From Rhodohalobacter sp. 614A (GTDB lineage Bacteria > Bacteroidota > Rhodothermia > Balneolales > Balneolaceae), in NCBI RefSeq assembly GCF_021462415.1, contig NZ_JAKEDS010000001.1:468273-532272 (forward strand): a stretch of 64,000 nucleotides of DNA, written 5' to 3'. A program made the translations under genes and the position numbers. Every line of letters starts with the position of its first letter. The first letter of the stretch is position 1. The notes below the pieces were generated by a model that did no database searches, was not told the origin of the DNA, and was given only the letters and a program-made list of their open reading frames with translations. This document shows positions 29,236 through 45,090 of the stretch, in pieces.

Positions 29236-31758
29236 ATGAAAAGGAGTCGATATATCAAATTTTTCGGGTTTCTATCCTGTTGTTCGATTGTCTTTATTCT
29301 TTTGACAGTTTTGCCTGTTCAGGCACAACAGGCTTCGTCCATTCTCTTCGAGAGTGATGGAAGACTTACATATATTTCCGATCAGGAAGGAAACCGAATA
29401 CCGGATTTTAGCCATTCCGGTTATTGGGGAGGTGGTGTTCCGATCCCATATCCACCTGTACGAATTACTCTTCCCCCACAGACAGGTGATGACACCGCAC
29501 GTATTCAGAAAGCTCTGCGTGATGTTGGCCAAATGCCAAAAGATGCTAATGGACATCGGGGTGCGGTGTTACTCAAACCGGGGGTTTACGAAATTAACGA
29601 CAATATTAACCTTGGATGGGATGGCGTCGTGTTGCGGGGTTCCGGTTCGGGATCTGATCCTTCTGAAAATACCATCCTAAAAGTATCGAAACAGGTACGG
29701 GGTACGGTTCTCACGATTGGCAATACAGAAGCAAGCTGGTACCGAGACGAGATGGGGACCAACTCAGAAATAATCTCGGAGTTTGTACCTGTCGGTTCGC
29801 GCAATTTCGAAGTAATGGATCCCGATTTCTATGAAGTGGGTGATAATATCATTCTTCGTCACCACAGTTCTCAAGAATGGCTGGATGCCATTAATGGCGG
29901 CGGCACGGCTTCGGCACCGCCGTGGGAACCGGGCTATATTGAAATTTACTACAACCGGGTTGTTACCGGTAAATTGGGTAATACGATATCTATAGACGTC
30001 CCGATATATAACCATTTTGACCGAAGTTTGGCGACCACACGCGTCTATAAAGTGTTGCGCGATCAAATTGTGACCGAAGTTGGAGTTGAATACCTGCGAA
30101 TAGAAATTAGTACTTCCGGTCCCGACTCTGAAGAACATGCTGATAATGCCGTAATGTTTGAAGGTGTAGAAAACGGATGGGCCCGCCACGTTACAACCAT
30201 GCACTTTAGCGTATCAGGGTTTGGAACAAGAAACTCAAAAAATATAACCGTCCGGGATTCAAAAGCTCTTGAACCTCACTCTACTCTGACCGGTGAGCGC
30301 CGCTACAATTTTCAGGCATCACTTTTTTCTAATAGTATTCTTTTCGAAAATGTAACCTCAAGTAATGCACGTCGTTCTTTTGTATCAAACGGAACAAGCG
30401 TTGCTTCGGGAATTGTTTTTTTGAACAGCCGATCAATAGGAGCGCTAAATGCCTCCGAAGGCCACCAACGCTGGAGCCAGGGGCTTCTTTACGACAATAT
30501 CACATTTGAAAATCCCCAAACGTACCTTGTTCTTGGTTTGTATAATCGGGGCGATATCGGTACCTCTCATGGATGGGGAGCCGTTCATTCCGTAGCATGG
30601 AATGTAGATTCCGGCGGTCAATACATCTACATTCAAAAACCACCAACCGCACAAAATTATGGAATAGGCAATAAAGGGACCGTAAACGGCGATGGCCTTT
30701 TTCATCATCCTACAGGATTCATAGAAAGAACCAATTCGGATGCTTTTCCTCAATCACTTTACGAAGCCCAGCTCGAAGAACGTTTGCAGTACGGCGTTCC
30801 ACCAGACGCCCCCGCAAGACTTACGGTTTCAAATGAAGAGGTAAATCAGTTGAGCCTGAGCTGGTTGCATTCTTCTGTGAAGGATACGCGCTTTATCGTT
30901 GAACGATCAAACGACGGTGGAGTAACATTTGACCAAATTGATATAAGTGAAGACAACGATTCCTCATACACGGATAAAACGGTTGTAGAATACGTGTATC
31001 ATTATCGGGTTCGGGCTGAGGATTCGAACGGAAAATCAGCTTACTCGAATGTGGCTTCCGCAGAACCCTTTTTTAACAACGGGTATATTGGTGATTTCCT
31101 TGTAACCACTCCCGAGGATTCGTCTCAATTTTCAATCGAAACCGATCCGGATGAATTGCTGACCTTTAGTTGGGATCAACCTGAGACTTTGCTTGAGATC
31201 GAATATACATGGATGCTGGACAGGTCCAGCGGTGATTTTTCAAATCCAATTGCTTCTATTTCGGCAGGCAATCTGAATGAAATCTCAACATCTTATCGGG
31301 AAATCATCAACATTTTGGGGGATGCCTCCATAACCTTCGATTCTGATCTTCCAATGATGTGGACGGTTAAAGCCAATTCAAAAACGATAGAAAAACAAGC
31401 CTCAAATGTCTATCACCTTACCTTCATCAAAAGAAAAGGATCGGATATATTAGACGAACCTGAACCGGGATCTGATCCGGAACCGATTTTCCCCGAACAA
31501 ACAGAACTGCGCCAAAATTACCCCAACCCATTTAATCCGGTTACAACCATTCGATTTTACCTCTCGGAAGAGAGCAATGTAACCCTCGAAATTTTTGATA
31601 TGTCCGGAACCCGTGTGGCGATTATTGACAGGGGCATGAGAGAAAGGGGATACCATGTGGTAAGATTTAATGCCAGTAATCTTGCCAGCGGTGTGTATAT
31701 CTATCGCCTGAAGACCAAGAACCTGGAAACCACCCGGAAAATGACTCTCGTAAAATAA
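29236..31758 (+). CDS. Exported right-handed beta-helix (pectate lyase 3-type) enzyme with Fn3 and T9SS sorting domain
   Basis: 840 residues. Signal peptide (1-30, ending VQAQ). The N-terminal part opens with GDDTARIQKALRDV at about 84-97, the entry motif of pectate-lyase-3/GH28-like beta-helices, and goes on through regular NxTxxDS and GIVFLNS coils to about residue 500. An Fn3 domain (about 515-600, SLSWLHSS and YHYRVRAEDSNG) and a further beta domain follow, then a sorting domain (755-840) with NYPNPFNPVTTIRF and GVYIYRLK, ending KMTLVK. It is probably a secreted polysaccharide lyase or hydrolase acting on the cell surface. Substrate and mechanism cannot be told; no other carbohydrate gene is adjacent. 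Convergent with the response regulator. Confidence 0.82.
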   Translation: MKRSRYIKFFGFLSCCSIVFILLTVLPVQAQQASSILFESDGRLTYISDQEGNRIPDFSHSGYWGGGVPIPYPPVRITLPPQTGDDTARIQKALRDVGQMPKDANGHRGAVLLKPGVYEINDNINLGWDGVVLRGSGSGSDPSENTILKVSKQVRGTVLTIGNTEASWYRDEMGTNSEIISEFVPVGSRNFEVMDPDFYEVGDNIILRHHSSQEWLDAINGGGTASAPPWEPGYIEIYYNRVVTGKLGNTISIDVPIYNHFDRSLATTRVYKVLRDQIVTEVGVEYLRIEISTSGPDSEEHADNAVMFEGVENGWARHVTTMHFSVSGFGTRNSKNITVRDSKALEPHSTLTGERRYNFQASLFSNSILFENVTSSNARRSFVSNGTSVASGIVFLNSRSIGALNASEGHQRWSQGLLYDNITFENPQTYLVLGLYNRGDIGTSHGWGAVHSVAWNVDSGGQYIYIQKPPTAQNYGIGNKGTVNGDGLFHHPTGFIERTNSDAFPQSLYEAQLEERLQYGVPPDAPARLTVSNEEVNQLSLSWLHSSVKDTRFIVERSNDGGVTFDQIDISEDNDSSYTDKTVVEYVYHYRVRAEDSNGKSAYSNVASAEPFFNNGYIGDFLVTTPEDSSQFSIETDPDELLTFSWDQPETLLEIEYTWMLDRSSGDFSNPIASISAGNLNEISTSYREIINILGDASITFDSDLPMMWTVKANSKTIEKQASNVYHLTFIKRKGSDILDEPEPGSDPEPIFPEQTELRQNYPNPFNPVTTIRFYLSEESNVTLEIFDMSGTRVAIIDRGMRERGYHVVRFNASNLASGVYIYRLKTKNLETTRKMTLVK

Positions 31759-31776: not shown

Positions 31777-32409
31777 TCAGGAGTCCTGGAGATTCTCCAT
31801 CATGTATTTTACAAGTCCCGTATTCGTTTTTATATCCAGTTTTTTGTGGATGTTTTTTCGGTGAGTATCAACCGTATACTTACTAATTTTTAGCCTTTTT
31901 GCGATCTGTTGCGAGGTTTTGCCATTTGCAATGAGTCTCAGAATTTCCCGCTCTCTTTTTGTCAGAGGTGATTGGTTCTCTACCATATCAGGATTTTCGA
32001 GCCATTTATTCACTTTTCCAGAAATGGAAGGGCTATAGTAATTACCTCGATTTACGAGTTTATTGATGGCCGTTACCAACTCCTCTTTTCCTGCTTTTTT
32101 GATAATGTAACCAGATGCACCCGCTTTTAGCATCTCGATAATTTCCTCTTCCTGGTCGAACATACTGAGTGCCAGTACGGGTATCTGTGGGCAGTTTTCT
32201 CCGAGATATTTTGTAGCAGCAATTCCATCCATCACAGGCATGCGGATATCTGTTAAAACGATATCCGGCAAAACTTTTTCTACAGCTTTGATCAAGTCCA
32301 GACCGTTTTTAGCCTCCGCTACAACAGAAATATCACGGACGTTTTCCAGAATGGATTGGATCCCATCAATAAACATCTGATGATCATCTGCTATTATAGC
32401 TTTTATCAT
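31777..32409 (-). CDS. NarL/LuxR-type response regulator
   Basis: 210 residues. Receiver domain 1-120 with acid pocket Asp8/Asp9, phospho-acceptor Asp54 (VLTDIRMP), and Lys at KKAG. A LuxR-type helix-turn-helix covers about 145-205 (PLTKREREILRLIANG, SQQIAKRLKISKYTVDTHRKNIHKKL). Phosphorylation should come from the HisKA_3-type kinase at 39165-41102, the natural partner class. It is the last gene of a six-gene minus-strand run that starts with that kinase, and may bind the two palindromes inside the run. Confidence 0.93.
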   Translation of the reverse strand: MIKAIIADDHQMFIDGIQSILENVRDISVVAEAKNGLDLIKAVEKVLPDIVLTDIRMPVMDGIAATKYLGENCPQIPVLALSMFDQEEEIIEMLKAGASGYIIKKAGKEELVTAINKLVNRGNYYSPSISGKVNKWLENPDMVENQSPLTKREREILRLIANGKTSQQIAKRLKISKYTVDTHRKNIHKKLDIKTNTGLVKYMMENLQDS

Positions 32410-32493
32410 GTTTTAATGATTGCTTTTACAACTCTTCATACTATATAAAAAAACAAAAGGTAAATTTACGAAAAACAAATATGCCTCATACAC

Positions 32494-33120
32494 TCACCAA
32501 CTTTTAAATAAGACACGAGCTTCTGTATGATATGGATTTGGAGCACTCACTTCCACAGCCCTCTTGCTTGACCAATACGAGTTTCGGGCAAATGTAAAAA
32601 CTCTGGATCCCCTTCCAATTTCCTCGTCTTTTTCAACGTTCATAACAATAACTTCTACAGTCTCTCCTTCGACAATATCTACATCGAACACAAATCTGCG
32701 GGTATAAAAGCCAGTGGTTTCATTCTCAAGTAAATCATCACTAACAAAATGAAACGTATCACTGGAAAATTGAAAAATGATATCAAAATCAAAATCCAGA
32801 TATTCCGTATTCAGATCTATTGCAATTGCAGCTGTTTTAAGATTTGTACTGGGCACGCTACAACTTGGAACCTGCAAAAATCCTGTTGAACAAGTTTCAG
32901 CCATAAGCCCCACGGCGGAATCAAAATGGTCGCACTCTTCCCGAATTCCATCCCAGGCTTTTTGCATGGTAGTGGGATTGCAAAATTGGCTTTCAATTTT
33001 CTCTGCCATGTGATCTATTGCTTCTTCACATTTGGTGCACTGGTCGTCACATTCTGCTCCGCCCACAAATAACATGAGAGGAATACTTAGTAGAAGGATT
33101 GTTTTTCTTTTTGTAATCAT
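32494..33120 (-). CDS. Small Cys-rich exported protein
   Basis: 208 residues. Signal peptide 1-22 (MITKRKTILLLSIPLMLFVGGA); Cys24 is preceded by Glu, so this is not a normal lipobox. Seven cysteines lie in the first 90 residues (24, 28, 31, 47, 63, 77, 87), suggesting disulfides. The C-terminal 100 residues are beta-rich. The end reads PNPYHTEARVLFKSW, which looks like the first strand of a YPNPF-type sorting domain cut short; no continuation is seen in any downstream frame. Function unknown. It lies 99 bp after the 951-residue gene. Confidence 0.6.
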   Translation of the reverse strand: MITKRKTILLLSIPLMLFVGGAECDDQCTKCEEAIDHMAEKIESQFCNPTTMQKAWDGIREECDHFDSAVGLMAETCSTGFLQVPSCSVPSTNLKTAAIAIDLNTEYLDFDFDIIFQFSSDTFHFVSDDLLENETTGFYTRRFVFDVDIVEGETVEVIVMNVEKDEEIGRGSRVFTFARNSYWSSKRAVEVSAPNPYHTEARVLFKSW

Positions 33121-33196
33121 TTATGTCCCCGCTTTCCATTTGATAGTTTGAACTTGTACTTACTATGGATGAACGCCATTCATTTTCACATCAACA

Positions 33197-33214
33197 ATAC
33201 CTACCGGTAGGTAT
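33197..33214. promoter_or_regulatory. Palindrome ATACCTA-CCGG-TAGGTAT
   Basis: Perfect 18-bp palindrome, 5 bp past the stop of the 951-residue gene and 76 bp before the next start codon. The arms are identical to those at 38252-38269. Read as TACCTAC-CG-GTAGGTA it has the 7-2-7 inverted layout known for NarL sites. It could also be an intercistronic hairpin. Confidence 0.5.
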
Positions 33215-33219
33215 CTTTT

Positions 33220-36075
33220 TTAATTTCCTCCTTCTCCCTGATCAATCTGCCGCATAAAATTCATCATCCTTGGCAGGATGGATTCTGTTTCGGCAGAAGC
33301 TTCTGTATTTCCCCCAATTGTAAATGGAACATCTATCACAGAACCTTGTTCAGGCCCTCCGGTTCTACCCCCGACCTGTTGGTCGCCTTCCAGAATTCGA
33401 ATAGTATACGTTCCGGTATCATCGGGGGCACTGATGACGGTTACGGTAGCTATGTACGATCCCGGAGAAAGCCGTAAAGGGTACGTTCTGGAGCCGCCTT
33501 CAGGTGTAGTTCCCAGATTTCCCTGCCCGGAGACGGAGAGTCCAAAAATATCATCCGCGGCACTTCCTGAATCATATAAAACAATAATAACGTTGAAATT
33601 GCCGGCACTTTCGCATCCTTCATCAATCAGTCCGTCACCATCGTTATCAATTCCATCACCGCATGTTTCGGTAGCGCCGGTTCCGCCCGCCTGTGTAATT
33701 TCGGGGTCGTCTCGTTCAGCAATCGTATCACCCTGATCGGCAACTTCCTGTTCGTCACAGCCAAATGTTTGAAGTTGATTCTCCATCATAACCAGGCCAT
33801 CTCTGATGTCGTTAAGGGGCGGACCAAGCTGAGATATTTTTTGAAGGATGCTATTGATATCCAGCGAAATTTCTTCCAATGGGCAAATTCCAGCTTCAAG
33901 AATCAGGTCGGTACCTAAACCTGTGGCTTCATCAACAAGAAGTTCGTACTGGGCCAGAGATTCCTTAGCCCCGGCATAAGCCGCCGCGATGATATTATTT
34001 TCACATGGATTTGAATTTTGGTCATTGACCTCTTTCATGAACTTATTGAGGTTAGCCCGAAAACCGGCTGCCATCTGATTGCCGGTTGCCACGAGTTCAT
34101 CGAGCCGTGCAAGGCTGGCTGCAAGTGCTTCCTCATCACAGAGCTCATCACCCGTTTCTGTAAGCTCGTCAATTGCCTCATCGATATTTACACATTTCCC
34201 CGAATCGCTAAGCTCGTATCCTTCTTCGGTATTACAGGCACAACTTCCGGTTTCTTTGTCCAGAATTTCACTGGGTTCGTTACATACCGTTTCTTCTTCT
34301 TCAACAGTAATGGAAGCGCTGGCTTCGAAACCCATATAGGTAACGCTGACCTGAAATTCACCGGCTTCTGTTGCTGTGAAGGAACTGGCAGGAGTCCAGT
34401 TAATACCATCCATTCCGGTAACATTTGCCGATGATTCATCTTCAAAAATTGCTATTGCTGAAAAATCTCTCATCTCTCCTATTTCCAGGGTAACTTCACT
34501 CGGGGAAATAGTAAGGCTGACGGGATTAAACAGATCTTCGATTTCAACTTTATTCAGTATCAAGGAAAGATTATCAAATCCCGGTTGATAAAACCGACTC
34601 TCATCATGGGCTGCTTCCTCTCCACTGCCAGCCTGAATTGTAAAACGTGAGTTTAACTGTCCCCGGGTTAGTACAAAATAATTTCCTTCCTCATCGGTTG
34701 TGGCATAACCTGTTCCTCCCTCTTCAACTTCAAGAACTACCGGCTCATTTGGTGCCGCTTCTCTGCCTGAATCCGTATCGCGAAAAACGGTGCCATTTAC
34801 ATAAACGTAGTTCGTTATTGCGTCAAGGACTCGCTGTATTTCATTACGTTTTTCCGATGAAAAAAGCCACAAACCAACAAAGGCATTCTCACTGTACGAT
34901 AGAAGTGAATCCAACAAGTCCATAAGCTCCATTTCTTCAAGTATCTCTTGATACTGATGGTTTCCTTCGGACTCCCTTAGTTTCCCGTAGTCTTGTTTGG
35001 CTTGCTCAATAAATGTGTTGGGATTAGACTTCGCCTGTGATACCAAAAGTTCTGCCCGGTAGCCGGCGGAAATTTCGCCTCTGAATTGAGAAGGAAGAGC
35101 CTCAAAATAATCATAAACTGTTTGAAAAACGGGGGGTGCGATCCAACCCCTGTTTCTGCCAAGAGTTTGATCATAGACGAAAAAGTCCATTGCAGTACCG
35201 ACAAAATTTTGAAAAACCTGAACATTGGATCCAAGAAGAGAAAACTGGCTGGTAACATCAAAATAGTCGATATTAGAGCGACCATCCTGTCCTTCAAAAT
35301 TGTTTTCGAAAAAAATATTAGCGTTCGCGTAAGAACTAAAACCTCCGCCAAGATTCCCCTGGCGGGCTGTCTCAATTTTTCCTTGGAGCTCAACTAATTT
35401 CCCGGAGATTACTTCCACCGATTTGGCATATTCTTCAAAAATTGTGTTCATAGGAAATGGAAGTTTTCCAGCGGCTTCACCAATGGCCTCGCCAATCATG
35501 CGTAAGCCTCGTGTGGGGTCGCCCCTTGCACCTTCCGGATTGTATTTTTGAAACTGATCAGCAAAGTCAATCACATTTTTAGCATTTCCTACAATAGTAG
35601 CTGCTGTGCCAAAGCCCTTTTTTGCATTTCCAAGCATCTGAAATGCCCCACTCGATTCAAACTCATAAAGCATTTCTTCCATGGTCATTTTTGCGTCCAT
35701 AACGGCTTCATGGGCTTCAATTCCCACAGACGCATACAACAGGTCGATATATTGCTGACATTCACGCCCTGTATCGCCCTGGCCGGTTACACATTCCCTA
35801 AATTGATTGTAACGCTGTTCCGTTTGTTCAATTCGGTTATTCACTTCACCCAGACTGCCCCCAAAATCATTTAGGATCTGTTTAGCTTCCTCCATTGCTT
35901 CTGCCGGGGTTTGTGCATATGAATGGTTTTGAAGAATAAAACCCTCTAATGAAATCTGGATCAGAATAAATATGATGAACAGAACAAGCTTCTGTGTCCG
36001 AAATCTATATTTAAAGAATATCGTCTGGCCACACACCTCTGATTCCCTGGAGTGATCCTTTCTGTATTTCATCAT
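33220..36075 (-). CDS. Large modular exported protein with Ca-binding-like and EGF-like segments
   Basis: 951 residues. A long N-terminal tail and hydrophobic signal (28-54) are followed by a helical region (55-415), then a prealbumin-like beta module (424-482, GYATTDEEGNYFV) and an Ig-like module (517-592, bacterial Big type). Next come a Cys-rich EGF-like segment (598-628), a second helical region with paired Cys (630-770), CGDGIDNDGDGLIDEGC at 805-821 (a calcium-binding D/N-rich turn) and a C-terminal beta domain (826-922). No sorting domain. It starts 2 bp after the stop of the SH3b-barrel gene, so translation is coupled. No family recognised for the whole protein. It may be a surface adhesin or scaffold partnered with that barrel. 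Confidence 0.75.
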   Translation of the reverse strand: MMKYRKDHSRESEVCGQTIFFKYRFRTQKLVLFIIFILIQISLEGFILQNHSYAQTPAEAMEEAKQILNDFGGSLGEVNNRIEQTEQRYNQFRECVTGQGDTGRECQQYIDLLYASVGIEAHEAVMDAKMTMEEMLYEFESSGAFQMLGNAKKGFGTAATIVGNAKNVIDFADQFQKYNPEGARGDPTRGLRMIGEAIGEAAGKLPFPMNTIFEEYAKSVEVISGKLVELQGKIETARQGNLGGGFSSYANANIFFENNFEGQDGRSNIDYFDVTSQFSLLGSNVQVFQNFVGTAMDFFVYDQTLGRNRGWIAPPVFQTVYDYFEALPSQFRGEISAGYRAELLVSQAKSNPNTFIEQAKQDYGKLRESEGNHQYQEILEEMELMDLLDSLLSYSENAFVGLWLFSSEKRNEIQRVLDAITNYVYVNGTVFRDTDSGREAAPNEPVVLEVEEGGTGYATTDEEGNYFVLTRGQLNSRFTIQAGSGEEAAHDESRFYQPGFDNLSLILNKVEIEDLFNPVSLTISPSEVTLEIGEMRDFSAIAIFEDESSANVTGMDGINWTPASSFTATEAGEFQVSVTYMGFEASASITVEEEETVCNEPSEILDKETGSCACNTEEGYELSDSGKCVNIDEAIDELTETGDELCDEEALAASLARLDELVATGNQMAAGFRANLNKFMKEVNDQNSNPCENNIIAAAYAGAKESLAQYELLVDEATGLGTDLILEAGICPLEEISLDINSILQKISQLGPPLNDIRDGLVMMENQLQTFGCDEQEVADQGDTIAERDDPEITQAGGTGATETCGDGIDNDGDGLIDEGCESAGNFNVIIVLYDSGSAADDIFGLSVSGQGNLGTTPEGGSRTYPLRLSPGSYIATVTVISAPDDTGTYTIRILEGDQQVGGRTGGPEQGSVIDVPFTIGGNTEASAETESILPRMMNFMRQIDQGEGGN

Positions 36076-36077
36076 TA

Positions 36078-38177
36078 TTATCTTTTAAACTGTTGCCGAT
36101 TAAACCTGTAACTCACACCCGCAAGTAACCGTAGCCCTTTTCGGCTCTGAATCGGGTTGATGCTGATATCTTCCGAAATGTCCAGGTCTACATTGTAGTA
36201 GCTGGCATCAATCTTCAGATCCAATGCGTCAATCAACGGAACCTGCACACCGGCGCTAAACTGGATGGTGGTTGGCATTCGTGTTTCCAGATCACCTTCT
36301 GTCACCAATCCGGTGCTTGTATCGATATCGATCTGGCTGTTGTACACCAGCGATTTTTGATATCGGAAATGACCGTAAATTGTCGCTTTCTCAATGGCTG
36401 TATTGACCCGCCCGTCAATCCCCGCCCGAAAACTGTTTCCGTTTCTTTCTATTTGAAGATCATCGGGGTTCAGCAAAAGCTGGGCGCCAATCGCCGGACC
36501 GACCTGGAATTGTGAAAATTTGAACCCAAACCGGCTGAACAAATCCACAGTATGCTCTCTGCCGGTTTCTTCCCAATAGCGGCCAAAAAGATTCAAATTG
36601 AAATACGCCTTTTTACCACTGCTGCTTCTGTCTAACCGGAGGTCAACATAGTTTGTGAGTTGTGTTTCTTCCTGTGGATGATAGACATACTGAACAGAAA
36701 AGGCCGTCCGAGCCAATCCTGCGCCGGATGATTTATTCCACTGATTTCGCAGGCGAATTCTATAATTGTCAAAAGCCTCGTTATTCGGGAATTGTTTGGC
36801 GATTAAAATGAGTGATGTTGTACGGACATTTCCAGCCCATTCCAGGTCCAGCCGCCCTCGATTGAAATTATTGCCTTCGGCTTCCGCAGCGTAAGTAAGT
36901 TGCTCGGCTTCAGCCCTGATTCCAAAGCTGCCGTTGCCGGTCAACCACGTTGCCCCTGCACTGGGAATAATGCGCATATAATCCAGGAAACTGATTTCAC
37001 TATCCTGAATTCTTCCCCTGACCCCAATATTTGCCCGCGTTTTCGAGCCGTTGAAATTCAGCCCTGTATTAAACCTGGCTCCTTTAAATTCATTTCCCCC
37101 GGAAACATCATATGTTTTCGAATCTGCCTGAACATCTCCGAAAAATCTTGTTTGTGGATTGAGAGGATGATCAACCCTAGCGCCAAATCCCATATTCTGA
37201 AAATTGTTTCGCTCGAAATTTGCATCACTGAAAGAATTGTAAAGGACTGATCCCTGCAACCGTGTACCCCCGTTTGTTTGATGTTGCACGTTCAGGTTTA
37301 CATCATTTGAAGTGTATGGCGTTTGAATCACATCGTTATTGTGATTCAGATTTACATTCAGCCGGGTTTGTGGGCTGAATATCACACTGCCGTTCATATT
37401 CAGGTTTCTTGAAGTGGTTGATTCCTCCTCCATCGACTCATAAGAAGAAGTGCCTAATCGTAACGAAGCCGTACCTTCATAACCAATTTGATTGCCCCCA
37501 GATTGTGCCAAAACAGGTGATCGCATCGGTGATAATTTCCTGTGGTAATGAGCGGCATACTCATAATAGGTTTCGATTTTTTCTTTTTCATTCAGGTATG
37601 CAGAATGAACAGTTGAAGCCTCTGTCTGTTCACTGGAAGAAAGGCCACCAAAGACTTCATCAAATTCTGTAAACAGCTCGCGGGCCTGATGGTATTGATT
37701 TTGAATACGTTCATACAAATGATCGGTCATCTGCCTGATGCGTGGATCTACAGATAATGCATTTCCTGAGACCGGCTCATTTACTTCTCTCTCAATGATT
37801 TCGCCGTTTTCGCGATGAATCCATCCCTCGCGGCCATTTTTGAGACTAATTCTATACCACTCATTTCTTTGCTCAACAAGGGGAAATTCATCACCTTCCA
37901 GAACTTCCATAAGAAGGGGAGAGGTCACTAAATCCGTCTCCCGAACTTCTGCTGTGACATCTGTAATTTGAACAAACTGTTCGGTATTGGATGCAGCTAC
38001 ATCACCAGCATTCATCTGCTTTGCAATAAGCAGAAACGAAGCTGCATTTTTTTGAACATCAGCCCGAACGGCTTCAATATCAGATAAAATATCTTCGAGC
38101 TCTGCCTGGTTTGCAGCTACAAGAAGAGTTGGAGTCAGCCAACAGTATAAAAAAATGGCAATGACTGTTTTTCTCAT
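36078..38177 (-). CDS. SH3b domain plus outer membrane beta-barrel protein
   Basis: 699 residues. Signal peptide 1-21, a short helix, an SH3b domain at about 70-133 (VRETDLVTSPLLMEVLEGDEF, then WYRISLKNGREGWIH), a helical spacer (146-215), then a Gly/Asn/Thr-rich beta-barrel of about 470 residues (230-699) ending in LRLLAGVSYRFNRQ. SH3b domains usually bind peptidoglycan, so the protein could tie an outer membrane barrel to the wall. The combination is not one I know. It leads directly into the 951-residue gene (2-bp gap) and has the second palindrome 70 bp upstream. Confidence 0.72.
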   Translation of the reverse strand: MRKTVIAIFLYCWLTPTLLVAANQAELEDILSDIEAVRADVQKNAASFLLIAKQMNAGDVAASNTEQFVQITDVTAEVRETDLVTSPLLMEVLEGDEFPLVEQRNEWYRISLKNGREGWIHRENGEIIEREVNEPVSGNALSVDPRIRQMTDHLYERIQNQYHQARELFTEFDEVFGGLSSSEQTEASTVHSAYLNEKEKIETYYEYAAHYHRKLSPMRSPVLAQSGGNQIGYEGTASLRLGTSSYESMEEESTTSRNLNMNGSVIFSPQTRLNVNLNHNNDVIQTPYTSNDVNLNVQHQTNGGTRLQGSVLYNSFSDANFERNNFQNMGFGARVDHPLNPQTRFFGDVQADSKTYDVSGGNEFKGARFNTGLNFNGSKTRANIGVRGRIQDSEISFLDYMRIIPSAGATWLTGNGSFGIRAEAEQLTYAAEAEGNNFNRGRLDLEWAGNVRTTSLILIAKQFPNNEAFDNYRIRLRNQWNKSSGAGLARTAFSVQYVYHPQEETQLTNYVDLRLDRSSSGKKAYFNLNLFGRYWEETGREHTVDLFSRFGFKFSQFQVGPAIGAQLLLNPDDLQIERNGNSFRAGIDGRVNTAIEKATIYGHFRYQKSLVYNSQIDIDTSTGLVTEGDLETRMPTTIQFSAGVQVPLIDALDLKIDASYYNVDLDISEDISINPIQSRKGLRLLAGVSYRFNRQQFKR

Positions 38178-38246
38178 CGAAAGCAGATTTAAAGTTTGTA
38201 CCCAACCTTTTTAATTCTGCTTTAATGAACAGACCCGCCGCTAAAG

Positions 38247-38274
38247 AATAAATACCTAACTGTAGGTATTTATT
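38247..38274. promoter_or_regulatory. Palindrome AATAAATACCTA-CAGT-TAGGTATTTATT (minus strand)
   Basis: 12-bp perfect arms (38247-38258 and 38263-38274). It lies 4 bp past the stop of the PorT-like gene and 69 bp before the start of the SH3b-barrel gene, the same layout as the palindrome at 33197-33214, with the same inner arms ATACCTA/TAGGTAT and a 4-bp centre. Confidence 0.5.
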
Positions 38275-38278
38275 TCTA

Positions 38279-39016
38279 TCAGAAAGCGTAACCGATTGTT
38301 AAGAGGAGTCCGCTTGTTGTGAGTTCAATGCTGTCCAGCAGATCCTCCAGATCTCCAAACTCTTCATTATCACCCAATTCATCTTCGAGTTCTTCAAACA
38401 GTTCAGCTTCACTGTCAAAAATATTTCCCAATCCAATGTCATATCTCAAATCAACCGAAACGGCTCCGAAGTTAGCCCCCAATCCCATGATAAAACCATA
38501 GTTAATGTCATTTAAAAGATCCTTGATCTCAATCCCATCAAAAGAACCTTCATCTGTGCCGACCGTGGCATCAAGCAAATATCCGGCAAAACCACCCGCG
38601 TAGACAAACGGACTTACACTTTCTGACTTGATGGGTATATTTAATTTTAACATGGCAGGAATATCGAGATATGATAGCGTTAATTTTCCTTCCCCATCCT
38701 CAACATCCACATCAAAATCTGTACCTGAAAAATGATCCTTCCCTCCCTTTTGGATGTATAGAGCTTCAAACTGCGCTGAAAGCAGGTCTGAAAATGGTTT
38801 CTCCACAAAAATTCCTGCAGCGAATCCGAATTTTGAGTCCGAGGTTTCTTCAACTGAAAGCCCAAAAAAGGATACACTGGCTATGGAAGAGTACAAGTCC
38901 GTCCCACCTTTTAATCCGATACGGGATTCTCCCTGAGCATGCAAATCCAGAATTCCGGACATCAGAAAGCAAACTGTAGCGAATAAAGTAATGAGACTCT
39001 TTTTCATGGTATTCAT
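38279..39016 (-). CDS. PorT-like outer membrane beta-barrel protein
   Basis: 245 residues with ATG at 39016 (a second ATG at 39007 is equally good). Signal peptide ending LHAQ, then the OMP_b-brl pattern: IGLKGGTDLYSS, GFAAGIFVEKPF, LSAQFEALYIQKGG, YLDIPAMLKLNIP, PFVYAGGFAGYLL and a final TIGYAF. An acidic insert (about 205-228, Glu/Asp-rich) lies in a loop near the C-terminus. Such barrels are common in Bacteroidota and are named after PorT; here it is only a family likeness, not proof of a role in type IX secretion. Second gene of the kinase-to-regulator run. Confidence 0.8.
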   Translation of the reverse strand: MNTMKKSLITLFATVCFLMSGILDLHAQGESRIGLKGGTDLYSSIASVSFFGLSVEETSDSKFGFAAGIFVEKPFSDLLSAQFEALYIQKGGKDHFSGTDFDVDVEDGEGKLTLSYLDIPAMLKLNIPIKSESVSPFVYAGGFAGYLLDATVGTDEGSFDGIEIKDLLNDINYGFIMGLGANFGAVSVDLRYDIGLGNIFDSEAELFEELEDELGDNEEFGDLEDLLDSIELTTSGLLLTIGYAF

Positions 39017-39164
39017 ATTATTTTGAATGGAAATTCTGATCAGATTTAATTCTCTTTATGATTCATTAATCTGTAAATCGGGGTTTTCTTCTCAGGCAGG
39101 TCTTGAACTGTTAACGACATAATATTACTAAAAAGATTTGAGATCCCTTGAGAAAATTTTGTTT

Positions 39165-41102
39165 CTAATCGACCGGGATATTTAAAATTACAGTGGTTCC
39201 ATTTCCGGGGGAAGAATCGATGGTTAAGTCTCCCCCGAAATCATCCACACGGTTTTGAATGGTGGTATATCCCAGCCCCCACTGGACTTTTCCCGGATCG
39301 AATCCAACTCCATTGTCCTCAACCATGATATTCAGCATCTCGTCATGCTGGGTCATCTGAACCACCATCTCCGAAGCCCTGGAATACTTTACAGCGTTTG
39401 AAAGCAACTCCTGTATACTTCTGAAAATGGAAATTTCCACACTATTTTCGAGCCTGTCTTCCAGCCCGGTTCCAATCACCTGAATATCAATTTTCCGGGC
39501 TTCGGAAATTCTGGATGCCATCGATTCCACAGCCGGAACCAAACCTTTCCTGATTAAAACACCGGCACTTTTACTGTGTGCTATTTTTCTCACTTCATCA
39601 TATGTCTCTTCTAAAAGATGGCTTGTTTTTTGATGAAGCTGATGATAATCCTCTTTTTTCCGTCCATCATCCAGACTTTCAATATATAGCTTGAGCGTTG
39701 CGAGCGAACTACCTATGGTGTCGTGCAATTCCTCGGCTATTTTCTCCCGCTCTTTTTCCTGGCCTTCCAGCATCGCATTAATGCCAATCAGTTCTTGTTC
39801 TTTCAGCAACTTCTCCACATGCTGTTTCTCAAGCTTTTCATTTTGCTGGGCGATAATTCGTTTCTTACGAGTGTTTTTTAAAGCCAGAAACCCGATGATC
39901 AGTGTAGCGACAAACAGTCCGGATAAGCCCGTCAGCAACATCCGGTTTTGCTGCTGACTCGACTCTAACTGTGCAATTTCCAGCTCCTGCCGTTCAGATT
40001 CATACTGGGTGCGGAGTTCATCAATAACCCGCTGGCGGTCAGTCGTAAAAATACTGTCGCGGTGGCTAAGTGTAACATCAAAATAGTGAACCGCTGAGTC
40101 AGGCTGACCGGCTACAGAATAGGCTTTCGCAAGATTGCTGGTTACATGCCACCGTTCATCGCCATTGGACAACGGCAATCCTTTTTCCAGGTATTGAATT
40201 GCTTCTTGTGGCCGGTCTAATTCTGTTAATGTTTGCCCCAGATTATTATAGATCGGAACCATATTCGAATAATTTCCGATGGCTTCTTTTGCCGCCAGAG
40301 ATTTTTTATAGTAATCCAATGACGTCTCAAACTCACCTTGTTCAAAATAAATCTGTCCAAAGTTGTTATAGACAATTCCAAGGGCATATTGATCCTGCAG
40401 TTCATCCCCAATGATTTCTGCCTGACGGTTATAATCAAGCGATTCTTCAAAGTTATTCAGCCGGAGATACTGTCCCGCAAGATTGGTAAGGGTGATTATC
40501 TCATATTGCTGAATATTATTTTCCTGGAAAACCGGTAATGCCAGTTCATTATAGCGCACGGCATTCGAGTAATCCCCCATATCCGCAAAAACCCCGGCCA
40601 TATTATTGTGGCTCATGGCAAGGTTCACTTCATCTCCACTATCCTCAAAAAATGATGCACTTTCCAGAAAAACTTCCAGCGCCTCCTGGTGTTTTTTTTG
40701 TCTCAATAAAACTACACCGACCCGATTATTGATGCGTGCCGCCTGATCTGTATCTCCTGCCCGTTCTTTACTGGTTTTGGCATCACGAAAATTGATTAAT
40801 GCTTCATCCAGTTCACCAGATACAAAATGGAGCCTTCCTTTTTGGTCGTAAATATCACCGAGTAAAACTTCATCGTCTGCAAGTTCCACAGACTGGTTTA
40901 CATATTCCAATGCCCTGGGAAGATCAGCAGCCATGGAAAGTTGCGCTAATTGCAGATAGATATGGGCTTTCTCATTTTGATCTACTTCTACCGATACGGC
41001 TTGAAGAAGACTGTCGGCCGCTGATATTTGTGAGTAGACCGGAGGCCGATCAAAGAAAAGAATACAAAGCCACCCGAGTAGTATTGTGGTTAACCACCTC
41101 AA
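39165..41102 (-). CDS. TPR-containing sensor histidine kinase, HisKA_3 (NarX/DesK) type
   Basis: 645 residues from TTG 41102; no in-frame ATG gives a signal peptide. Export signal 1-25, about seven TPR repeats (50-345) expected in the periplasm, one membrane helix (389-408), a coiled linker, then the dimerisation domain with phospho-acceptor His460 (EELHDTIGSSLATLK) and HATPase with SNAVKYS (568-574), DNGVGF (596-601) and GNGTTV (633-638). The type pairs with NarL/LuxR regulators such as the one at 31777-32409. TPRs suggest it senses a protein or peptide partner. First gene of the six-gene minus-strand run. Confidence 0.92.
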   Translation of the reverse strand: MRWLTTILLGWLCILFFDRPPVYSQISAADSLLQAVSVEVDQNEKAHIYLQLAQLSMAADLPRALEYVNQSVELADDEVLLGDIYDQKGRLHFVSGELDEALINFRDAKTSKERAGDTDQAARINNRVGVVLLRQKKHQEALEVFLESASFFEDSGDEVNLAMSHNNMAGVFADMGDYSNAVRYNELALPVFQENNIQQYEIITLTNLAGQYLRLNNFEESLDYNRQAEIIGDELQDQYALGIVYNNFGQIYFEQGEFETSLDYYKKSLAAKEAIGNYSNMVPIYNNLGQTLTELDRPQEAIQYLEKGLPLSNGDERWHVTSNLAKAYSVAGQPDSAVHYFDVTLSHRDSIFTTDRQRVIDELRTQYESERQELEIAQLESSQQQNRMLLTGLSGLFVATLIIGFLALKNTRKKRIIAQQNEKLEKQHVEKLLKEQELIGINAMLEGQEKEREKIAEELHDTIGSSLATLKLYIESLDDGRKKEDYHQLHQKTSHLLEETYDEVRKIAHSKSAGVLIRKGLVPAVESMASRISEARKIDIQVIGTGLEDRLENSVEISIFRSIQELLSNAVKYSRASEMVVQMTQHDEMLNIMVEDNGVGFDPGKVQWGLGYTTIQNRVDDFGGDLTIDSSPGNGTTVILNIPVD

Positions 41103-41207: not shown

Positions 41208-42452
41208 TTACTCGTATCTCAACGATTCCACCGGGTCTACTTTTGCAGCTTTGACTGCCGGAAAGATACCGGCGATTAACCCAATCAGTGCCAGCACACC
41301 TACCGTGATGATCACTGCCATTTCAGAGATCTGCGGTTTTCCAAGAAATTCGCCGGCACCTTCGGTCATATCCATTGCAAGAACCGCGAACACAATGGCC
41401 GACGAAATGGCCATCCCCAGGAAACCTCCCAGGAAGGAAATAAAAAGTGATTCGAAAATGAATTGTACAATGATATGAACTTTTCTTGCTCCCACAGCCA
41501 GTTTAATCCCAATCTCCTGCGTGCGCTCTTTTACAACCACAAACATAATATTGGCCACACCTACACCGGCAATCATCAGCGTGAAAAAACCAACCGTAAA
41601 AAGGAAAATCTCAAGGCCCGCCGAAACTTTCTGATTCATCTCTTCAGCTTCAATAAAATCCCACATCGGCATGGCCTGTTCATCTGCGGGATCAAACTTG
41701 TACTTGGCAGAAAATATATTCGTGATGCTCTCCTTGATTTCCTCTTGCTTGCTGGGATCGGTAGGCCGTACCAAAATGGAACCGACATAACGGTCTCCAT
41801 AAATATTTCTGAAGGTTGAGTATGGAATAATCGCTCGGTCGGCATCCGGGCCATTATTCATGGATGTTTGCATTTTGGATTGCATCGTTCCAATCACCGT
41901 AAAAGGTACGTTATTGAGCATCACTTCCTTACCCACTGGGTCTTCTCCCTGGAAAATCCGTTGAGCAATTTCGTTTCCCAGGAAAAGAACGCGGCGGACT
42001 TCATCCACATCTTTCTCATTAATAAATCGTCCCCCGGCGGCGGGATACATTGTGCGCATAATCTCAAAATCCGGATTCACTCCCTCCATGTAGGTGTTGG
42101 TTCGAACGTCACCATATTCAATTGTTGCTCCCCATCGGCCGTACTGCGGACTTGAATACTCAATATCAGGAACGGCTCTTTCAAGCATGGAAACATCTTC
42201 TTCCGAAAACCGGATCGCCCTGCCAATCCCGAGTCCTTCGTAATTCATACTGGTTTGTCCACCATAAATAATAATGACCTGATTTCCTGCGCCCAGCATT
42301 CCTTCTGCCATGCTATTGCCCAGCCCCCTGCCAAAAGCCAGAAGAAGTACCACGGAGAGTGTTCCCCACGCAATAGCAATGATCGTCAGAAAAGACCGGA
42401 GTTTTTGGTTTCCAAGATCCGTAAAAAATTCTCTAAATAGATTTCGCCACAT
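41208..42452 (-). CDS. MacB-like ABC transporter permease
   Basis: 414 residues. FtsX/MacB topology: one helix near 20-40, a large periplasmic MacB_PCD domain (about 50-270), then three helices (about 283-310, 335-365, 378-402). FxxxxxxxxGVANIMFVVVKERTQEIGIKLAVGAR is the coupling segment that meets the ATPase. No nucleotide-binding domain is fused and none is encoded beside it. It lies 3 bp after the second permease gene. With the MFP gene upstream it would make an export or mechanotransmission complex of the MacAB type. Confidence 0.9.
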   Translation of the reverse strand: MWRNLFREFFTDLGNQKLRSFLTIIAIAWGTLSVVLLLAFGRGLGNSMAEGMLGAGNQVIIIYGGQTSMNYEGLGIGRAIRFSEEDVSMLERAVPDIEYSSPQYGRWGATIEYGDVRTNTYMEGVNPDFEIMRTMYPAAGGRFINEKDVDEVRRVLFLGNEIAQRIFQGEDPVGKEVMLNNVPFTVIGTMQSKMQTSMNNGPDADRAIIPYSTFRNIYGDRYVGSILVRPTDPSKQEEIKESITNIFSAKYKFDPADEQAMPMWDFIEAEEMNQKVSAGLEIFLFTVGFFTLMIAGVGVANIMFVVVKERTQEIGIKLAVGARKVHIIVQFIFESLFISFLGGFLGMAISSAIVFAVLAMDMTEGAGEFLGKPQISEMAVIITVGVLALIGLIAGIFPAVKAAKVDPVESLRYE

Positions 42453-42455
42453 TCC

Positions 42456-43685
42456 TTATCTCCGTAAACATTCTACAATATCCAGCCGTGCTGCTCTCCA
42501 TGCCGGGAGTAAGCCGGCTGCAAATCCCACGAATCCCAAAACGGCAAATGCAATCAACCCAACTTCTGGTGAAAAGTAAGGGGCTCCAACAAATTCCTTA
42601 ATTGGAATATTTTGTGTGGCCTGTACCAGCAGCCATCCTATGGCATAACCGGCACCTGCACCCAAACCGATAATCAAAAAGGTTTCCAGGAAAAATTGTC
42701 CCATAATGTGATGACGTTTTGCACCGACTGATCGCCGGATACCGATTTCTTTCATCCTTTCCTGGACAACCACAAACATGATATTGGCAACCCCAATACC
42801 GCCGACAGCAAGTGTAAAGAAACCAATCAATCCCAGAAAGCCGTTGATTCCCAAAAACATGATGTCGATAAATGCCCAGAATTCATTGGTGTCCCAAATC
42901 CCGACGGCATCCGTATCAGACGGATCAAACCGGTGTTTCCGCCCCATCACTTCGTACACCTGATCCCGAATGTTTTCGGCCATTGCCGGATCCTTCGGCG
43001 TGTAAATGATATTATTGATAATGTCGGTACCCATCATAGTAGAAAATGTAGTTGCAGGAATAAATGCCCTGTCCTGATCTTGTTGAGAATAGGATGAGTT
43101 TTGAATTTTCTCATGAAGTACCCCAATCACGGTGAAAGGTGTATCCTGCATCATTACAGATTTTCCTACCGGATCTTCATTTTCGAACAGATTTTGAGCC
43201 AGCCGGTTACCGAGAAAAATCACACGTCTTTGCTCACGGATGTCATGATCATTTAACCAGCGTCCACCTTGTTTTTCATACATATTCCGAACATCCTGAT
43301 ATCCCGGATAAACCCCGCCAACTGATGAGTTTCGCCGTTTTTCGCCATATGAAATCTGCAGGTAGCTGGAATATTCCGGAAGAACAACGTCGATCTCCGA
43401 AATCTGCTGCTTCAGCATCCAGGCATCGGCTTCGCGAAACCGGATGGGACGGCCTATTCCATATCCTTCAAATGCTTTTGTTGTTTGCCCGGGAAACATA
43501 ATGGCAAGTTGATCTCCCATCCCCCGCATATTCAAAACGGTTTGATCTCTGAAACCTACTCCAAAAGCAAGAAGCAAAATGAGCGTGGCTGTACCCCACA
43601 TGATTCCAAAAATCGTGAGGAAACTTCGCAGCCGTTGCTGGTTTAGGTTTCTGAAAAGGTCCGTAAAAAGACTCAGGATTGACAT
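42456..43685 (-). CDS. MacB-like ABC transporter permease
   Basis: 409 residues, a clear paralog of the next gene with the same four-helix plan and a GVANIMFVVVQERMKEIGIRRS coupling segment. The periplasmic part has FLGNRLAQNLF and GKSVMMQDTPFTVIGVL as in MacB_PCD. Two different permeases side by side suggest a heterodimer. It follows the adaptor gene after 47 bp. Confidence 0.9.
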   Translation of the reverse strand: MSILSLFTDLFRNLNQQRLRSFLTIFGIMWGTATLILLLAFGVGFRDQTVLNMRGMGDQLAIMFPGQTTKAFEGYGIGRPIRFREADAWMLKQQISEIDVVLPEYSSYLQISYGEKRRNSSVGGVYPGYQDVRNMYEKQGGRWLNDHDIREQRRVIFLGNRLAQNLFENEDPVGKSVMMQDTPFTVIGVLHEKIQNSSYSQQDQDRAFIPATTFSTMMGTDIINNIIYTPKDPAMAENIRDQVYEVMGRKHRFDPSDTDAVGIWDTNEFWAFIDIMFLGINGFLGLIGFFTLAVGGIGVANIMFVVVQERMKEIGIRRSVGAKRHHIMGQFFLETFLIIGLGAGAGYAIGWLLVQATQNIPIKEFVGAPYFSPEVGLIAFAVLGFVGFAAGLLPAWRAARLDIVECLRR

Positions 43686-43732
43686 GGATGATTTTTAAAC
43701 TGATGACTTATTTAAACTTGCTTACAGATTCT

Positions 43733-44839
43733 CTATCTCACGGTAAGTGTTTTAACCGGGCGTTCATAAACGGTATCACCTTCAGCAAGGCCATCGGTTA
43801 CGGCAACTGTAATGGCGTCACTCAAACCTAACTGAATTTCTTTTTCAACTCTGCTGCCGGGTTCATCACCGGGAATTTCCACATAGTTTTTACCATCCCG
43901 CATAGTGATTACCCGTTCAGGAATAGTAACTACATCCTGGGCTCTTTCGATAATGATATCGGCATTTGCGGAATAACCGGCTCTTAGTGTTACGCCATTT
44001 GTATCGGTAATCGTAATCTCAACCGGAAAAACCGTTGCATTATCTTCCTGTGTAGCCTTCAGTGAAATTCGAGAGACTTCACCGTAAACAACGGCATCAG
44101 GCAGAGCTCCGATCTTGATTTCTGTTCTCATTCCTTCTTCCATTTTGCCAACATCAATCTCATCAACTGTTCCTTTAAACAGCAACTTGTCCATCCCGGC
44201 AATACTCATCAACGCGGTACCGGCCTGGTAGGAGGTTAACGGAACTACAGGCTCACCTTCATCAACCATCTTTTCAAGTATATAGCCATCGACTGGTGCA
44301 CGAATTACCGATTCAATCACCGTATCACCAATCGAAACTTTACCGGATTCCAACAAATCGAGACGCTCCTGGCTTATTTGAACGCGAATTTTTACATCTT
44401 CATACTGCTGTTCCAGTTGCTCATACTCCTGAGCAGAAACCAGATTTTGATCCATCAGTGTCTGCATGCGTTTCATTTCGCTTTCAAGACTTTCTTTCTC
44501 GATTTGGGTTCGTTCCAGGTTTCGTTTTGCCTCTGCGAGCTCCAGTGGAGTTGGATCCGGTTTTACCTCAATAAGCGGCTGACCCTGGGTGACGTATTCT
44601 CCCGGTTCGGCAAAAATTCTACTGACAACCCCCGAGATTTTTGATTTGATTTCGATCTCATTTTCAGGTTCAATCGTACCAACTGCCAATGCTTTTTCAA
44701 TAACTGTCCCGATCTCGGCAACCACAAACGGATCTTCCTGACCCTCTTCTGAGGATGAATCACCCTGCAAAAAGTAGAAGGCCCCGCTGCCCAGTACAAT
44801 CACAACAAGAAGAGTTATCCAGATTTTCTTTCCTTTCAT
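43733..44839 (-). CDS. MacA/HlyD-like periplasmic adaptor
   Basis: 368 residues from ATG 44839, chosen because AAGGA lies 9 bp upstream; ATG 44881 would add 14 residues. Signal anchor (about 5-23), lipoyl-like hairpin halves (EIEIKSKISGVVSRIFAEPGEYVTQGQPL and the APVDGYILEKMVDEGEPV half), a coiled-coil hairpin (about 95-160) and a beta-barrel and membrane-proximal domain. It should bridge the two permeases to an outer membrane channel. No TolC-type gene is nearby. Confidence 0.9.
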   Translation of the reverse strand: MKGKKIWITLLVVIVLGSGAFYFLQGDSSSEEGQEDPFVVAEIGTVIEKALAVGTIEPENEIEIKSKISGVVSRIFAEPGEYVTQGQPLIEVKPDPTPLELAEAKRNLERTQIEKESLESEMKRMQTLMDQNLVSAQEYEQLEQQYEDVKIRVQISQERLDLLESGKVSIGDTVIESVIRAPVDGYILEKMVDEGEPVVPLTSYQAGTALMSIAGMDKLLFKGTVDEIDVGKMEEGMRTEIKIGALPDAVVYGEVSRISLKATQEDNATVFPVEITITDTNGVTLRAGYSANADIIIERAQDVVTIPERVITMRDGKNYVEIPGDEPGSRVEKEIQLGLSDAITVAVTDGLAEGDTVYERPVKTLTVR

Positions 44840-45090
44840 TTTAACATCCTTTTTTTGATTCAAGACTGACTTGTCATTCATTCATAATCTCACTTACGCA
44901 AGAATTTTTACAAGGTTACTGTTAATCCGGTCCTAAACTCTCTCTTTTTTATTTTACTTTATGTGTTAGAATTTTTTTATCAACCACATTTAACTTGTTA
45001 TTTTGAGCCTGAGATGAGTTTATCTTCATAAATAATGCTTCAATCTCTTCGGGATGACAGGAATTATATTCGCAACATATTTAAATCATT

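Follow-up and report, generated by a model that had tools for sequence, protein, structure and literature searches.

A two-component gene cluster of Rhodohalobacter with a locus-confined palindrome and a predicted barrel/surface-protein pair

Genes at the locus, the conserved core and a cluster-confined palindrome

We analyzed a 64,000-nt stretch (the window) of the 4.69-Mb genome of Rhodohalobacter sp. 614A (contig NZ_JAKEDS010000001.1, positions 468,273 to 532,272). Six minus-strand genes at window positions 31777-41102 encode, in the order of transcription, a TPR sensor histidine kinase, a PorT-like small β-barrel, a large barrel protein with an SH3b fold (SH3b-barrel), an exported modular protein of 951 residues (951), a Cys-rich small exported protein, and a NarL-type response regulator (Table 1). 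We consider it reasonably probable that the cluster encodes a two-protein surface apparatus together with a two-component system dedicated to it, and that the whole is positively autoregulated.

A sequence-only reading had described six nearly contiguous minus-strand genes here. All six open reading frames were found where that reading had placed them, and domain searches matched its labels. The Pfam domains listed in Table 1 for the kinase, the PorT-like protein and the regulator were all above cut-off. The SH3_3 match in the SH3b-barrel protein was slightly under it (26.5 bits vs. 27), the matches to 951 were all sub-threshold, and the Cys-rich protein had no Pfam match. "Nearly contiguous" holds for the SH3b-barrel and 951 genes and not for the other neighbors (gaps of 148, 101, 2, 99 and 84 bp, in order of transcription). 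Two of these gaps, 5' of the SH3b-barrel gene and 5' of the Cys-rich gene, are occupied by a palindrome, TACCTA-N4-TAGGTA, that the sequence-only reading did not contain. Because two gaps hold an operator-like palindrome, a single six-gene transcript is unlikely as the whole story, and expression of the locus probably uses two or more promoters.

We found that four of the six genes are conserved together. We compared 58 relatives, of which 28 belong to the same genus (the window genome is counted in both numbers). A relative of the 951 gene was present in six of the 58, the SH3b-barrel gene in the same six, and the two were adjacent in every case. This is in line with the proposal that their products probably work together. 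At E ≤ 1e-100, a search of 40 genomes yielded a kinase orthologue in five. In every genome whose contig reaches that far (five, window genome included), the kinase gene is 5' of the barrel gene and in the same orientation, and the four other copies were 52-75% identical to the window kinase (tblastn). The regulator orthologue lay downstream in all four genomes whose contig reaches its place (the window genome, G015, G017 and G020). Kinase and regulator thus bracket the locus, as had been proposed, wherever the assembly permits a check.

The two remaining genes were not conserved parts. PorT was not matched (E ≤ 1e-4) in the stretches retrieved from the five other cluster genomes. The interval that it occupies between kinase and barrel genes was empty in G015 and G017; in G020 and G011 it held an oppositely oriented gene for a small lipoprotein. 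A distant OMP_b-brl_2 barrel (22% identity to PorT) was present 5' of the kinase in G017. The Cys-rich gene was matched in 2 of the 58 genomes (window genome included), and the G015 copy follows the regulator gene on the opposite strand. A small lipoprotein unrelated to the Cys-rich protein is encoded after 951 in G017, G020 and G002, and in G020, G011 and G002 another one, DUF6252-like (above cut-off in two of three), is encoded 5' of the barrel gene in the opposite orientation. G015 has the compact form: kinase, barrel, 951 and regulator, with no genes in between. We therefore rejected the proposed six-gene system. PorT (at the locus in the window genome only) and the Cys-rich gene (one relative, in G015) occur apart from the others; the other four do not within the Balneolaceae. 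As judged from gene content, the unit is a conserved four-gene core (TPR kinase, SH3b-barrel, 951 and NarL-type regulator) with exchangeable small secreted proteins. The open-licence literature yielded no description of this gene set or of such a locus in this taxon, which does not imply absence from print.

The palindrome was found almost exclusively at the cluster. Its perfect form occurs exactly twice in the window genome, compared to 0.44 copies expected from base composition, and both copies are inside the cluster. Among the 58 relatives it occurs in exactly six, those with the cluster, and all 10 perfect copies are at the cluster; no copy is present in the remaining 52 genomes. One further cluster site, the eleventh, has a single mismatch and lies 5' of a lipoprotein gene in G020. 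A palindrome precedes the barrel gene in six of six cluster genomes, and each of the six has at least one small secreted-protein gene with a palindrome (shared sites counted). No palindrome with two or fewer mismatches was found in front of the kinase genes in the stretches scanned. As a control we used the pattern read backwards, which has the same composition; it was scattered over many of the 58 genomes. A version of the palindrome with a 3-base spacer gave no perfect copy and was rejected; the 4-base spacer fits. Judging from the DNA, the palindrome would be a private switch of the locus, hardly present elsewhere in the genomes of these salt-loving bacteria. Because it is confined to the cluster in the cluster genomes, self-control of the locus, as postulated in the sequence-only reading, is likely.

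Family-wide, the palindrome was present in 9 of 92 genomes: the six cluster genomes and three with a single copy. Of the three copies in the 86 non-cluster genomes, two are inside open reading frames and one is intergenic. The intergenic copy (L086 1501-1516, genome G313) is 11 bp before the start of a gene for a 454-aa sensor kinase (L086 125-1489, minus strand), probably by chance. In these 86 genomes the palindrome (three copies) was apparently much rarer than the reversed control (at least one copy in many).

Table 1. Features of the locus, in window coordinates
Feature	Position	Strand	Description
Sensor histidine kinase	39165-41102	-	TTG start; signal peptide, TPR repeats, one transmembrane helix, HisKA_3 + HATPase_c (Pfam)
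PorT-like small beta-barrel, accessory	38279-39016	-	OMP_b-brl_2 (Pfam); in kinase-barrel interval, window genome only
Palindrome copy 1, putative operator	38253-38268		Perfect TACCTA-N4-TAGGTA; 75 nt 5' of SH3b-barrel ATG
Candidate -7 box TTCATT	38224-38229	-	Conserved offset from palindrome; one mismatch to TAnnTT
SH3b-barrel, core	36078-38177	-	N-terminal helix, SH3b, helical hairpin, predicted 24-strand outer-membrane barrel
951-aa exported modular protein, core	33220-36075	-	Head ~56-515; Lig-type Big domain ~518-592; Cys-rich EGF-like stretch and helical part to ~790; tail with MopE-like motif
Palindrome copy 2, putative operator	33198-33213		Perfect; 77 nt 5' of Cys-rich gene ATG
Cys-rich small exported protein, accessory	32494-33120	-	Relative in G015 only (40%)
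NarL/LuxR-type response regulator	31777-32409	-	Response_reg + GerE (Pfam)

The neighboring genes differ between genomes. Two MacB-type permeases and an HlyD-type protein are encoded just 5' of the kinase gene on the same strand (window 41208-44881); the permeases had no ATPase domain match in Pfam. These genes are syntenic in G015 (87-91% identical) and were unmatched in the stretches from G017, G020 and G011. There, the next gene 5' of the kinase, on the same strand, encodes an exported protein of 345-346 aa with a sub-threshold FecR match (L015 9820-10860, L016 17347-18387, L018 1252-2289). The three proteins are alike and may belong to the sensing side. On the other flank, a gene convergent with the regulator gene and 18 bp from it (window 29236-31758) encodes a protein with a C-terminal sorting domain of the type IX secretion system, a SusE-like match, and weak fn3 and pectate-lyase-like matches; a 60% identical relative is nearby in G015. 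We found no Rfam match at gathering thresholds. PADLOC identified no system-specific defence family; its matches were to the DNA-binding part of the regulator and the TPR part of the kinase, which are generic.

The barrel protein and its 951-residue partner

We modeled the SH3b-barrel protein using an alignment of seven sequences (mean predicted local distance difference test score, pLDDT, 79; predicted template modeling score, pTM, 0.53). The N-terminal helix, SH3b fold and helical hairpin are followed by 24 long strands. Using VIA-align, the best solved match was MtrB (Z 20.7 over 437 residues, root-mean-square deviation 4.0, 7% identity), approximately 3 Z above ushers (Z 14.5-17.5) and TonB receptors (up to 17.1), which were tied. 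Sequence identity in the VIA-align matches did not exceed 12%, and families missing from the list were not counted as excluded. Foldseek gave its best E-values to TonB-dependent receptors, with BtuB first. No usher, chaperone or pilin family was matched in Pfam by the six genes and four neighbors, the barrel relatives, or 10 accessory and upstream proteins. A profile of the barrel protein matched in 94 of 394 genomes of the phylum, and only four of the matches span the barrel. The remaining matches fall within approximately residues 6-195, mostly in the SH3b stretch, and many are in open reading frames of ~250-300 aa that are presumably BatE-like. None of the viral contigs or plasmids searched contained a relative of the barrel.

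The model of the 951 protein was poor (mean pLDDT 58.6). A clear relative was found for the Big domain alone, namely Leptospira Lig (LigA 8gyr, E 1.8e-9; by fold, 4.2e-7). LigA was also on top in the fold search, and the other matches were mostly Ig-like chains, including antibodies. A 951 profile matched in 5 of the 394 phylum genomes, one of them with an 18-bit match confined to the MopE-like motif, and no relative was found in the plasmids searched. There are two types of tail. The MopE-like motif with a beta-rich tail is found in four genomes, and a different tail is common to L037 and the Bacteroidales copy described below.

We found the pair once outside the genus. A search of a collection of 84,980 species yielded six loci, one of which is in a Bacteroidales metagenome-assembled genome (L038). 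In the alignment, its barrel protein lacks the part corresponding to the SH3b domain (residues 70-135 of the window protein), and it has no Pfam match. A 782-aa homologue of 951 is encoded 23 bp after the barrel gene. From the Big domain on, this homologue shares 41-43% identity with four Balneolaceae proteins (294-325 residues) and 41% with the L037 protein (458 residues, tail included). Its first 335 residues had no blastp similarity better than E ~1 to the two heads compared. The 13-kb contig contains no kinase, regulator or palindrome. The barrel-951 pair can apparently exist by itself. The kinase, the regulator and the palindrome were therefore either added in Balneolaceae or lost in Bacteroidales. 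No curated family covers this predicted barrel/surface-protein pair.

The barrel might also be an uptake or diffusion channel with 951 as its substrate-binding partner, making the locus a regulated nutrient or ion system rather than one for export or display. The Foldseek result points in this direction, as does the level scoring of receptors and ushers in VIA-align (17.1 vs. 17.5). The small secreted lipoprotein genes that also bear the palindrome and the OMP_b-brl_2 protein inserted at the window locus are consistent with it as well. However, Pfam (E ≤ 0.1) showed no TonB plug or receptor domain in the window barrel or among the families listed for related barrels, MtrB and not a receptor leads the structural matches, and no transporter or enzyme is common to the locus across genomes. 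We regard a channel of this kind as unlikely.

Regulatory proteins and promoter geometry

Kinase and regulator are of the two-component type by their domains (TPR, HisKA_3 and HATPase_c in the one, receiver and GerE in the other). H460 in the EELHD motif is invariant in five kinases and D54 in eight aligned regulators. Judging from the domains and the conserved linkage, phosphate would be transferred from this kinase to this regulator. The kinase matched the NCBIfam FimS model NF053520 (E 1.2e-19); we rejected FimS as a family name because the score was 70 bits, compared to the curated cut-off of 600.

The regulators of the cluster differ from their nearest paralogues in the presumed DNA contact region. 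We aligned three orthologues and five paralogues, leaving out the G017 copy, which contains a stop codon. In the recognition helix region, all three orthologues read TVDTHRKNI-x-KKLDIK; the five paralogues (41-44% identical) carry TVDAHRRNLLQKTG instead. All of the next regulators found at E ≤ 1e-40 in the six cluster genomes are 41-44% identical.

We aligned the promoters next to the palindromes. The 16-bp inverted repeat with TAC/GTA ends is present at 10 perfect sites and one single-mismatch site in the six genomes. Because three of the 11 sites are between divergent genes and serve both, 14 promoters could be aligned. The half-sites were identical in 13 of the 14, the remaining promoter differing at a single base, and the A and T that flank them were invariant throughout, giving the consensus ATACCTA-N4-TAGGTAT. 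Outside the palindrome, conservation is concentrated in a T-W-n-n-T-T element that begins 23 bases beyond the repeat. In 11 of the 14 promoters, the box at that offset differs from TAnnTT by at most one base. Six boxes are exact, all of them at lipoprotein genes; the five near matches are TTnnTT boxes at barrel genes, including the window's TTCATT. None of 2000 shuffles and none of 2000 rotations of the 14 related promoters reached the box score at +23.

The spacing would be compatible with a known class of activator. The -7 element of Bacteroides fragilis promoters is given as TAnnTTTG (PMC7366714). If the box at +23 is such an element, then the center of the palindrome is, by arithmetic, near -43. 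According to passages of PMC7419079, Escherichia coli NarL binds 7-2-7 inverted repeats, and in an activated derivative of the ogt promoter the NarL site is at -44.5. The geometry of the putative operator would thus fit a NarL-type activator position near -43. In four of four testable genomes the regulator gene is directly 3' of a palindrome-bearing gene or operon, and positive autoregulation is therefore predicted.

Alternatively, the palindrome might serve a regulator other than this one, or the NarL-type protein might be a repressor; kinase and regulator would then be linked to the surface genes but signal differently. G011 and G002 have the palindrome and no regulator orthologue was seen in them (both contigs end before the expected place), and 3 of the 14 promoters lack a -7-like box within one mismatch. 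Against this, palindrome and cluster coincide in 6 of the 58 genomes without exception, the geometry would suit a NarL-type dimer at an activator position, and the next regulators are 41-44% identical, the five aligned sharing a different recognition helix. We regard a different regulator or a repressor as rather unlikely.

It is quite improbable that the palindromes act as RNA, as terminator or mRNA-stability hairpins 3' of the PorT and 951 genes, with kinase and regulator acting elsewhere. Both window copies are shortly after a stop codon and could pair as RNA into hairpins of 8 bp or more, and the copy after PorT folds with a z of -4.1. However, folding of the copy 5' of the Cys-rich gene was no stronger than that of shuffled sequences (z -0.67), and neither site is in the terminator scan. 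Three of the palindromes are between divergent genes, where no gene ends. The sequence itself is fixed beyond what pairing would need, with one half-site substitution across 11 sites, and a terminator confined to one locus per genome would be unexpected.

A proposed circuit and its relation to known systems

We propose the following circuit. The TPR sensor kinase would phosphorylate the NarL-type regulator encoded at the opposite end of the cluster, as suggested by the domains and the conserved linkage. A regulator dimer would bind ATACCTA-N4-TAGGTAT near -43, in keeping with the co-distribution of motif and cluster among the 58 genomes. Once bound, it would activate the barrel-951 transcript and one or more genes for small secreted proteins, and would raise its own level, its gene following a palindrome-bearing gene or operon. 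The regulatory part of this proposal is well supported by the sequence comparisons, which show directly the co-distribution, a constant gene order, the private palindrome and a mostly constant spacing to a promoter-like box.

The apparatus itself would consist of the large barrel, with a periplasmic SH3b/helical base, and the 951 protein. The barrel would most likely export or anchor 951 through the conserved part from the Big domain onward, with the exchangeable N-terminal head displayed outside. More speculatively, and by analogy to FimS, the kinase would read the periplasm with its TPR repeats and may sense the state of assembly or a peptide ligand. Taken to its full extent, the proposal describes a new two-protein display machine: a 24-strand barrel, a conserved partner region locked in or through it, a head swapped between lineages, and, in the Balneolaceae, a self-amplifying private circuit that senses assembly from the periplasm. 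We consider this extended version possible, though doubtful.

Several observations weigh against the proposed module or parts of it. The six cluster genomes are all from one genus, so the 14 promoters are not independent; several of the genomes are metagenome-assembled. With six promoters chosen to lower relatedness, 74 of 5000 shuffles reached the box score. The box has two or three mismatches at both Cys-rich genes, including the window's own, and at the G002 barrel gene. The G002 contig ends short of the place of the kinase, and no kinase at E ≤ 1e-100 was found anywhere in that genome. The G011 and G002 contigs stop before the place of the regulator, and the sole regulator found at E ≤ 1e-40 is a 43-44% identical paralogue. 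The regulator copy of G017 (L015 1240-1854) has an in-frame stop in the DNA-binding domain, although both palindromes there are intact; it would be a pseudogene or an assembly error. As to the apparatus, the route and anchoring of 951 are guesses because of the low pLDDT of 951 and the low pTM of the barrel, and the signal region of 951 would also fit plain periplasmic export. The L038 contig may have been mis-binned, or it may have been acquired by transfer.

An electron conduit of the MtrCAB type, with the barrel as sleeve and 951 as inserted partner, is barely conceivable and was rejected: MtrB is the closest solved barrel by structure, but there are no CXXCH motifs in the six 951 homologues examined, and none of the window's six proteins, their four neighbors or the 10 accessory and upstream proteins scanned matched a cytochrome family.

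Several known systems share parts of this locus. In MtrCAB (6r2q), a protein partner is inside the MtrB barrel, which has 26 strands. Our predicted barrel is most like MtrB in structure and differs in having 24 long strands, an SH3b and helical base, and no haem partner. The barrel of chaperone-usher ushers has 24 strands. Like the ushers PapC and FimD, our barrel has 24 predicted strands, scores at Z 14.5-17.5 against them, and has an Ig-like surface protein as its neighbor; unlike at their loci, there is no usher, chaperone or pilin family match here. The 951 protein resembles Leptospira Lig and other Big-domain surface proteins in the Big domain that matches LigA. Unlike Lig it has a single Big domain, and its head, Cys-rich stretch, helical part and tail belong to no named family above cut-off. 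The locus exposes a barrel/surface-protein pair with a conserved partner region and a seemingly exchangeable head, which opens to direct testing the route by which such proteins arrive at the surface in Bacteroidota-type cells.

The regulatory half has counterparts as well. The heptamer consensus of E. coli NarL is TACYYMT. As in the NarL operators described in the passages cited above, a 16-bp inverted repeat would be bound by a GerE-domain regulator just 5' of a core promoter, here a predicted one. Unlike E. coli NarL, for which RegulonDB gives 26 controlled regions, the regulator here would control one locus per genome, and the seventh base of each heptamer is not conserved. Because a single locus holds the sensor, its regulator, the putative operator and the targets, and the palindrome is nearly absent from the rest of the genome, a clean test is possible in Rhodohalobacter sulfatireducens WB101.

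A further parallel is FimS-FimR of Porphyromonas gingivalis, in which, according to passages of PMC11053733, a sensor kinase with a periplasmic TPR domain turns on surface-structure genes and that domain may bind a polypeptide. Our locus differs in the score of its kinase against the FimS model (70 vs. 600 bits), in matching no fimbrillin family, in the bracketing of the targets by kinase and regulator, and in a very small palindrome regulon. Like FimS-FimR, it has a TPR sensor kinase, one that matches the FimS model, beside genes for a predicted surface structure.

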